Below, in pieces: positions 3,149 through 51,914 of a stretch of 64,000 nucleotides of DNA. How positions within the stretch are numbered: the first letter of the stretch is position 1; every line of letters starts with the position of its first letter. Source of the DNA: Mesostigma viride (Eukaryota > Streptophyta > Mesostigmatophyceae > Mesostigmatales > Mesostigmataceae); contig RPFO01000229.1 in the NCBI GenBank assembly GCA_009746045.1, forward strand, positions 494,001 through 558,000, written 5' to 3'. Position numbers and translations under genes: made by a program. Below the pieces are notes generated by a model. That model worked only from the letters and a program-made list of their open reading frames with translations. It made no database searches and had not been told where the DNA came from.

Positions 3149-6100
3149 CTAGTTGTCATGGATTTTCCGAATGATGCGGAGGTGGCCAAACGTGGAGGCG
3201 CCAGGGGACGAGCCCGAGAACACGTACGGGCGGTACCCGGTTGCCTTCTTGTAGTTTCGTACCACCTGCCCAAGAGGGATTGAGCAATGCGTAAAGAGCA
3301 AGGAGCAAGGACAAGGGACCAATGGCAGCCAAGTGGCGGGAGTGGGGTTGGGGTGGGAGGTCCGTCAAGATGTCAGATCGTCAACAAGTAGGAACCAGAG
3401 ACAAAACTTATTCTAGTAGAGCGCTCGCCACTATCTTAAATTGACTACGTGGCACACAAGTTAGCTCAAAGTGCACAGCAGCCGTTGAACCCGCCCAACA
3501 AGAGGCATGCAACTGTTAAATTTTGAACTGTAATCCCAACCCTTGGTTGAGATTTCAGCTTCAACAACTTCCATCCGCGAGGTTGACCCAAATGCTTGGG
3601 TAAGCTGTCTGTGGCTTTGAGACAGTGCTTCCTCACCATCTTCAGTGCGCCGAGTCAAGGTGTTCGGTCAAGGTCGTCCAAGCCCATTTACTTAGGGTTC
3701 TTTAGTGGACATATTGGCCGCAACAATACACTGTCGTCAGATTTGAGTAGCTAGCTACGCACCCTTTTCCAGGGGTTGACCTACGTTGGGGTTGTGGTGC
3801 TTTTACTAGCATACGGTGTGTACAGGGCCCGGCGCTATGGTGTAGCGCCGGCTAGCAAGGCCGAGCCACATGGTGGGCTGAGCCTTAGTCTAGGGCGTTT
3901 TCCAGTGTACACTCATTTGTAGCTAGTCCGGTGGTTTTCAGGGTTATGACACATTCCAGTGTTCTATCATTCGTAGCTAGTCCGAACGGTGGGTTTCAAC
4001 CCACTGCTATTCCGAAACAGTCTGTGGTTGTGAGTGTCACTGATGGACTGGTTGTCGGTCGATCATTTATGCACGCGTCGTGCATCGTCTTCCAACGGTG
4101 CATGACGGCGGGCATATAGGCGTTGGTGTTTGATTTACCTTTCCTCTCTCGGTTTAATTGTAAATGGCATAAAGTGACTCACGTCTACTTTCCGAGGGGC
4201 CACGCCTGCGGACTAGGATTTTACATGGATTCTGGTTCTGGTCGATAAAAGCTACATGTCGGTATCTTGATAAAGAACGTCTTGATATTCGTATGAAGTA
4301 TTCCATTCCAGGGATGCGAGTTCTGGTTACAGGCGACCACTGCCCATGACAATCAGCCATGGACCAGGTGTAGGTCTTTCGCAGTCGGTACTCCAGCCGA
4401 CGTAAAAGAAGGCACCTGACAAACCATATGATTAGCGAGCTGGTCAATCAAAGAAAGGACTCGAACCATATATTTAACGAGTTCGTCAGTAAAATGGATG
4501 GGTCAAACCATATGACTAACGACTTATTCAATCAACTAGATGGGGAAAAAAATTGTTTATCACATCCTCTCCTCACCTCCTCAAGCGCGTCCAGGCTGGC
4601 CTCCCCTACGTGGCCCATCACGCACACCGTCCCCCCGCTCCCCCCCCCGTGATCTTGGCGCCGTAGAGGCCTCGTATGTGCGAGGCCAGCGTGTCCTGGG
4701 TGTAGGCCACCAGCTTGTCGGTGCCGACGGACCCGAGGCCCAGGTTGGAGTAGCTGCCGTGGGACTGCGGAGGGAAGGGTGGCAACCGTAAAAACAAATG
4801 AAAAGAACCTATCAGCTGTAAGTGGATTAAGTTGGACCTGATCGTCTTCAGGGCCTCTCTGTCAGTTGAGGCAACGTCCTCTGCGACTTGATAGGTCGAC
4901 GGATCCAGGGCGGGCTGTGGCATTTCTTTACCACACGGGCTGTTAGGCCAAGCTAGGACTTGTACACTCGGCGTTGGATTCCCTGGTGAAAGCGACGGAC
5001 CGGCTGACCCACTGCGAATGCGCCCCCCTTGCGCGGCATCTGGAACCATCATCCAATCAGAATGGTGTACCAAGGCTCCAGGCATCTCCGCACCTGGAAC
5101 ATGAGCTCCCCTAGCAGCTCCATCTGCGATTCGGACGACAGGTTGCGCATGAGGCTGGCAAACGCCTGCAAGGACAGCAGCAGCCAGCCCATCCAGAGCG
5201 CGACCCATCAAGCAGCCCATCGAGACTCCCGGAGAATGGGTTAGCGAGCGTGTTGAACAGTCCTTGTGAACCAGATACGCAACTCAATCTAGATAAAGCA
5301 TCCAAATAACAACGGCCCCATGGTTAACTTCACCATTCAACCAAAAATCCCCCTTCCCAACCGCACCAAGACCATTCCCCCATAACCGCACATTCACGCC
5401 AAATCAAAGCCACAGAAACCACAAAGTCGCCCTCATTCCGCCTTGACGGAAGTACAAGCCAAGCAAGAAAACAACGACCGCTCTTCAGATCTTTACCATT
5501 TAACAACGAAATGCCCTTCTTCAGCACAGTTGAGCGGGCCCTAAGCGCACCCTCACGCCAAGCAATAGTACCACAGCAGTCCCTGCATTCCCACCTTCAC
5601 CCGGAACCAGATAGCCGTGCCCAACCAGTCAAAAGCAGAGCAACAAAACATCAACGGCTCCTCACCATATCATTGATGTGGACATTCTCGTGCACCGGGT
5701 GCCCAGTGTTTTGCAGAGTTTAGGGTTACGGTTTGGAACTTTCGACCACAAGGTCCCCCCCCAGACACCACAAGACCATGCCGCCACTAATTACCTTCAG
5801 ACAGAAGTTGGTTCAGGAAGGTGCGCAAGTTCTCGCGCACCTTTAGGCAAGCACAAGCAGAGCAACAGTAACAAGAAAGAAAAACAATAATGGGCCCCCA
5901 CTCTCACCGTGACACGCTAGTACTCGTGCATCTCTGTGCAAACACCAGCAAAACATTCAAAACACCAAGCCCCCCTTTGTTTCCACCTTCACGCAAGCAC
6001 ACGCAGAGCAACTAAACCATGGCAGAGCAACACAAGCTGTATTCTCACCTTGACGCGGAAGTTCTCGTGCACCGGGTGCCCCGTGCAGCGCCGGATCCGG

Positions 6101-51914: not shown

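Follow-up and report, generated by a model that had tools for sequence, protein, structure and literature searches.

Diverged copies of exon edges and their splice sites in adjacent introns of ARA1 and other genes of Mesostigma viride

Results

Genes and repeats in the window

The window analyzed here, a 64,000-nt stretch of the Mesostigma viride genome, carries a minus-strand gene for L-arabinokinase (ARA1; Table 1), modeled as 29 exons and 28 GT-AG introns, the latter totaling 26,122 nt. Exons 1-27 encode 924 aa with no stop codon, and the closest protein, Mesvir1 model P0001, shows 100% identity across all 924 aa. The product also matches the Pfam families GHMP_kinases_N and GalKase_gal_bdg. 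P0001 runs past the exon 27 donor, stops within the intron (5052-5094), and seems to be shortened relative to exons 28-29. In exon 28 (4577-4764), the frame is broken at a poly-G run and homologous reading resumes in a different frame, which may reflect a sequencing error or a genuine lesion. On the plus strand lies a gene with a Pfam TPR_12 match, consisting of two exons (33272-34086 and 35126-35390) and a single intron. An NDUFS4 exon, ending at base 50376, was recognized by its match to Pfam NDUS4 (PF04800).

TRF was run on the whole window, and the resulting 47 rows served as the repeat mask. A long pentanucleotide array occupies positions 27103-27375 of ARA1 intron 7, where a CCTAA-type unit gives way to a CCTGA-type unit and then, at the end, to an ACCGA-like one. 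A tRNA scan and an Rfam scan of the window gave no matches, nor did a megablast search of 8 kb against phages.

The segment at 45145-49593 shares 90% identity with C1:3.0573-3.0616 Mb and is therefore treated as a mobile element. Its single-exon ORF (46255-49142; 962 aa) has no Pfam match, and the element may be hAT-like. Two overlapping minus-strand ORFs of 645 and 252 aa at 53520-56122 mark a candidate second mobile element. Lastly, a 1.7-kb stretch (40739-42484) has 99.2% identity to C1:3.0274-3.0291 Mb and, judged by its sequence, is a recently moved or duplicated repeat.

Copies of ARA1 exon edges in adjacent introns

A first-pass annotation of the window had claimed that exon borders, together with their splice sites, recur as diverged tandem copies in the flanking introns. 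These copies are referred to here as echoes. Each ARA1 exon edge was represented by a 40-nt probe (25 nt of exon and 15 nt of intron) and compared with the entire adjacent intron, using 200 dinucleotide shuffles per edge and, as controls, reverse-complement targets and non-adjacent introns. Nineteen of the 56 edges (10/28 donors and 9/28 acceptors) reached p ≤ 0.01, where 0.56 of 56 are expected by chance, and 15/56 scored above all shuffles. With reverse-complement targets, a single edge of 56 reached the shuffle maximum or more. The alignment crossed the junction at 16 of the 19 significant edges, the exceptions being donor 3, donor 16, and acceptor 17. Copies of exon edges, including their splice signals, are real features of the adjacent introns.

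Echoes had been claimed at twelve or more ARA1 exons, and 13 of the 14 edges named were confirmed. All seven donors (exons 3, 6, 13, 17, 21, 24, and 26) passed at p ≤ 0.01, as did six of the seven acceptors (exons 4, 12, 14, 17, 22, and 23). The seventh, acceptor 20, was marginal in the edge test (p = 0.07), yet its junction-centered probe scored 25. Six further edges also passed, namely acceptors 15, 16, and 21 and donors 12, 15, and 16. Among these, donors 15 and 16 are weak as tandem echoes, the first match lying 568 nt away and the second being 11 nt long. The edges of exons 28 and 29, which fell outside the range first annotated, showed no echo in the edge test. At a score of at least 22, a copy was present anywhere in the edge's own intron for 20/56 edges. 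The claimed range of one to four copies per echo-bearing edge held at this score: four at donor 26, three at donor 12, two at acceptors 4, 12, and 22, and one at each of the others.

Table 1. Positions in the window of ARA1 and of the copies of exon edges
Feature	Position	Strand	Remarks
ARA1 (L-arabinokinase) gene	3149..32347	-	Gene model, Mesvir1 model P0001, Pfam
Echo, donor edge of exon 3	30500..30524	-	Period 106; exon part only, GT lost
Echo, acceptor edge of exon 4	29688..29713	-	Period 118; second copy 29803-29841
Echo, donor edge of exon 6	28367..28399	-	44-nt unit; exon part 37/39 identical
Echo, acceptor edge of exon 12	23711..23728	-	Period 85; second copy 23779-23794
Echo, donor edge of exon 12	23399..23429	-	More copies 23328-23350, 23239-23260
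Echo, donor edge of exon 13	22590..22609	-	Period 49; GC in place of donor GT
Echo, acceptor edge of exon 14	22133..22163	-	Period 95
Echo, acceptor edge of exon 15	21744..21777	-	Period 104; absent from first-pass annotation
Match to donor edge of exon 15	20872..20899	-	568 nt distant, beyond tandem range; weak
Echo, acceptor edge of exon 16	17947..17961	-	Period 88
11-nt match, donor side of exon 16	17593..17603	-	Does not cross junction; weak
Echo, acceptor edge of exon 17	17466..17487	-	Period 329; AG lost
Echo, donor edge of exon 17	16907..16928	-	Period 112
Echo, acceptor edge of exon 21	11375..11391	-	Period 102
Echo, donor edge of exon 21	11094..11123	-	Period 100
Echo, acceptor edge of exon 22	10516..10544	-	Period 101; second copy 10618-10645
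Echo, acceptor edge of exon 23	9421..9440	-	Period 97
Echo, donor edge of exon 24	8317..8334	-	Period 72; 18-nt core identical
Echo, donor edge of exon 26	5902..5930	-	Period 141; more copies 5823-5841, 5673-5696, 5583-5606
Echo, acceptor of single TPR-gene intron	34586..34601	+	Shuffle test
Echo, donor edge of NDUFS4 exon (last base 50376)	50247..50302	-	Shuffle test

Of the 19 significant ARA1 edges, 17 had a score that was not equaled in any non-adjacent ARA1 intron of similar length, and the remaining two had no comparator; when probes were compared between introns, 0.13% of 3854 matched. Insertion of introners or transposons, which needs the same sequence in unrelated introns, was rejected on both counts within ARA1. 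The same figures bear on the reading that the matches are due to chance, low complexity, or the common splice-site consensus. Two of the 29 matches that scored at least 22 across all genes, at the acceptors of ARA1 intron 7 and intron 1 of the KEA-like gene described below, do lie within simple repeats and were set aside, and an individual weak edge may be due to chance. For the set as a whole, chance is excluded by the shuffle test and the between-intron null, and the reverse-complement control also speaks against it, leaving this reading a next to negligible probability.

Echoes in other genes

Echoes recurred in unrelated genes, as had been claimed. In the window, the acceptor of the TPR-gene intron was matched by 0/500 shuffles and the NDUFS4 donor edge likewise by 0/500. 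The TPR donor edge was matched by 20/500 and does not hold as an echo, and a PRXL2-like intron of the window had no echo at either edge (499/500 and 493/500 shuffles).

A second region, 200 kb from elsewhere in the same genome with mobile elements up to 99% identical to those of the window, was annotated with a two-strand HMM written for this analysis. This HMM exactly recovered 27 of the 29 ARA1 exons before self-training and 26 after, ARA1 itself being in the training set. Among all introns predicted in the second region, after a length filter, 26/214 edges carried an echo against 20.9 expected, which is no clear excess (p = 0.076). This otherwise unfiltered set comprised 113 introns, one transposon-like model having been dropped, and contained too many mobile-element models to serve as a test of the claim. 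Four genes with 28 introns were then retained, by a filter chosen after the unfiltered result: a member of the Na/H-exchanger family (KEA-like), CEP76, and a thioredoxin-like gene, each with Pfam support, and ClpB, recognized by reading its translation by eye. In these genes, 10/56 edges carried an echo against 5.5 expected (p = 0.022), an excess that was gone at scores of at least 26 (6/56 vs. 5.1). For the antiporter gene, no Mesvir1 model was found among the best 120 of 308 relatives. The block C2:2.00-2.08 Mb was also considered as a source of genes; on reading, it looked to be mostly mobile elements, and none of its models were used.

Counted by gene, junctions with an echo numbered 15/53 in ARA1, 6/19 in the KEA-like gene, 2/21 in CEP76 (where most edges thus had none), 1/8 in the thioredoxin-like gene, 0/4 in ClpB, 1/2 in the TPR gene, and 0/2 in the PRXL2-like gene.

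That the copies were created during assembly is extremely unlikely. The broken frame at the poly-G run of ARA1 exon 28 does indicate that homopolymers here may be imperfect. However, the copies differ from one another by ~15% plus indels, unlike an assembly duplication, and the same pattern occurs in another stretch of the genome.

Splice signals and unit lengths

Twenty-seven matches scoring at least 22 could be mapped across the junction. The splice dinucleotide was mostly retained, as first reported: GT in 9/11 donor echoes and AG in 13/16 acceptor echoes, or 22/27 in all genes tested (14/17 in ARA1). Such intact sites might be taken to mean that selection maintains echoes for the regulation of expression, with a role as alternative or decoy splice sites, a reading we regard as very unlikely. 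Overall identity alone, under drift, predicts retention of the dinucleotide in 18.9/27 (P = 0.14). Identity was 84.8% (587/692) in the exon part of the echoes, 83.8% (238/284) in the splice core, and 82.1% (376/458) in the intron flank, the last figure being biased upward as these identities come from local alignments. The splice core of the 27 mapped echoes thus showed no extra conservation over exon part or flank. Echo periods had no frame bias either (10/27 are multiples of three vs. 9 expected), and the Mesvir1 protein uses no echo site in its first 924 aa. At the sequence level, there appears to be no sign of echoes serving as alternative sites or being preserved.

As in small tandem duplications, the copies are head-to-tail, on the same strand, and close together, with exceptions such as donor 15. 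Similarity over the full unit is clear in ARA1 intron 6, which has a 44-nt unit, in ARA1 intron 21, and in one CEP76 intron; other junction cases have 18-45 nt aligned without gaps at periods of 66-377. When the intron portion of a unit is taken as the period minus the aligned exon, it goes down to 5 nt in donor units (n = 11, periods 44-230) but is at least 55 nt in 16/16 mapped acceptor units (median 78.5). This difference is expected if a unit can survive only with a full splice site inside it. Among periods of 45-340 nt inside introns, 57/182 were below 84 nt, compared with 0/17 for verified acceptors (p = 0.004); in unverified models this shortage was not seen (3/8 below 84 nt). If each period equals the length added, and one period is counted for each of the 17 mapped ARA1 echoes, junction-spanning duplication contributed ~2.0 kb of the 26.1 kb of ARA1 intron.

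Junctions compared with intron interiors

For comparison with intron interiors, a junction-centered probe was counted as matched when a copy scoring at least 24 lay within 300 nt. In ARA1, this was the case at 7/27 donors and 8/27 acceptors. Interior 40-nt probes from the same introns matched in ~12% of cases, or ~9% with simple repeats masked, both far above the 0.13% found between introns. The first-pass claim implied that echoes are more frequent than matches to 40-nt probes drawn at random from those introns, and in the genes tested here this was borne out, with matches at 15/54 ARA1 junctions against 6.2 expected (p = 0.0002). This 2.4-fold excess persisted at a score of at least 30, the highest tried (10 vs. 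4.6, p = 0.003).

Local copies are also common away from junctions. They were found for 10.1% of intron probes (n = 2447) in ARA1 and the TPR gene and 14.7% (n = 1893) in the four other genes. In unassigned DNA the values were 2.8% (n = 3111) in the window, 8.6% (n = 16066) in the second region, and 6.5% (n = 7745) in a third. For exon probes they were 0% (n = 293) and 3.5% (n = 541). Pooling ARA1 with the six other genes, 25/109 junctions had an echo. Probes 40-200 nt away, available for 108 junctions, gave an expectation of 11.6 (ratio 2.15, 95% CI 1.46-3.20), and probes further in, for 94 junctions, gave 24 observed vs. 12.1 (ratio 1.98, 1.20-3.25).

It had been proposed that introns here lengthen by tandem duplications that span junctions, with the functional copy held at the coding side. 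Much of this stands: the copies are diverged, on the same strand, mostly nearby, and span the exon edge and splice site, and the working copy is the exon-proximal one. What is not supported is specificity for junctions, since local duplication occurs throughout the introns and junctions carry about twice as much of it as nearby intron.

We simulated the case in which selection freezes one copy, with 26 nt of the working copy, covering exon and splice core, either fixed or drifting at 0.3 of the full rate. Under these settings, which used a single unit length (100 nt) and a single frozen stretch (26 nt), the ratio of junction to interior matches was 1.34-1.57. Survival and detectability bias therefore account for much of the junction excess and may cover all of it. 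Two results pull the other way: the 2.4-fold excess in ARA1 exceeds the simulated ratio, and its persistence at scores of at least 30 counts against bias, because age-related detectability should matter less there.

An excess of this kind could also mean that duplication is targeted to junctions, and to 3′ splice sites above all, through R-loops, co-transcriptional spliceosome assembly, or exon-edge chromatin, yielding modules spaced ~100 nt apart. Besides the ARA1 excess, the spacing of acceptor echoes favors this idea. Verified acceptor periods fell at 84-120 nt in 12/17 cases vs. 39/182 inside introns (Fisher 6e-5), a bin picked after inspection of the data. Among these cases, four of the five mapped acceptors in the KEA-like gene and CEP76 fell in this bin. 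The pattern was not reproduced in unverified models, where 1/8 acceptors lay at 84-120 nt. Verified donors fell in the same bin in 4/10 cases, and the confidence interval of the pooled ratio overlaps what one frozen copy predicts. Taken together, we find targeting to junctions unlikely. Its fuller form has a similarly small chance of being right. In this form, a process linked to splicing or transcription would repeatedly copy complete 3′ splice-site modules of ~100 nt in the upstream direction, extending introns at the acceptor end beyond what survival bias explains.

Discussion

The explanation we favor, and consider quite probable, is that echoes are decaying by-products of local tandem duplication: the exon-proximal copy is under selection, the other drifts, and the excess at junctions arises mainly through recognizability. 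Small local tandem duplications would build up in M. viride introns, where searches reaching 300 nt gave periods of 13 to 281 nt. For a unit spanning an exon-intron border, selection would continue to act on the exon-proximal copy, which serves in splicing, while the second copy, inside the intron, would decay into an echo, presumably unspliced. Survival would require a complete splice site in the unit, which at a donor would mean ~6 nt of intron and at an acceptor the whole block of branch point, pyrimidine tract, and AG. Short acceptor units would be purged, as they would leave the downstream acceptor lacking a branch point and pyrimidine tract within the unit. With one copy alone drifting, the pair would stay recognizable for longer, and echoes would seem commoner than other local copies. 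In agreement with the by-product explanation, exon, splice signal, and intron flank are alike in the junction-crossing alignments. The local copies in intron interiors, their scarcity in exons, the unit lengths, and the excess in the four genes of the second region fit it as well.

The duplications themselves may have originated through break repair or slippage. Vaughn and Bennetzen reportedly described, in 2014, small tandem duplications in rice that arise when DNA breaks are repaired. Break repair commonly yields such duplications, with induced overhangs down to 43 bp (PMC8355091). These are, like echoes, short head-to-tail copies of comparable size, but they followed induced breaks in mammalian cells, whereas the echoes are diverged germ-line relics in an alga.

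Tandem duplication around splice sites has been linked to intron gain. Potato RdRp acquired an intron, as excerpts of the report describe it, when a tandem duplication extended over an intron-exon boundary (PMC4974935). As in our case, the duplicate covers the last part of an intron and the first part of the exon that follows, so that a putative branch site, pyrimidine tract, and 3′ splice site come with it. Potato RdRp gained a new intron, whereas here an existing intron lengthens with no new exon in the model: the ARA1 echoes sit within introns, the product is the Mesvir1 protein, and no new intron in the coding sequence was found. In Drosophila, some introns have been ascribed to intron sliding or exon duplication (PMC2891723, in the part drawn on). 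That work shares with ours tandem duplication around splice-site-like sequence, whose footprints may fade with age, but it concerns novel intron positions with no surviving similarity, while in Mesostigma the copies are visible and positions unchanged.

The mean intron of Mesostigma is 1141.9 bp, second after Chara braunii among selected species, and repetitive elements, which make up 30.1% of intron space, are named as the cause of this length in the portion of the genome paper used here (PMC6947507). Junction-spanning tandem duplication goes unmentioned in the portions used of that paper and of a second Mesostigma genome paper (PMC7027972). By the ARA1 estimate above, such duplication accounts for part of the intron length that the genome paper puts down to repeats. 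Relative to the known cases of duplication, what appears to be new is the systematic, repeated occurrence at existing junctions. Titles and abstract openings of the open-access literature contained no description of systematic splice-junction echoes, which is weak evidence given that subscription journals mostly lie outside this scope. If the frequency seen here is genome-wide, this early-branching streptophyte holds a readable record of intron lengthening, with exons as the fixed reference, and would allow a direct measurement of how often duplications arise and how much splicing can tolerate.

Echoes would also call for caution in gene prediction, where they may yield spurious exons. A predicted coiled-coil gene of the second region (L013-L015; C1:3.1080-3.1214 Mb), with no Pfam match and no homologue, has nine predicted introns with an edge scoring at least 24. 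One of these introns adjoins a 9-nt predicted exon, which is probably a spurious call of the HMM caused by an echo.
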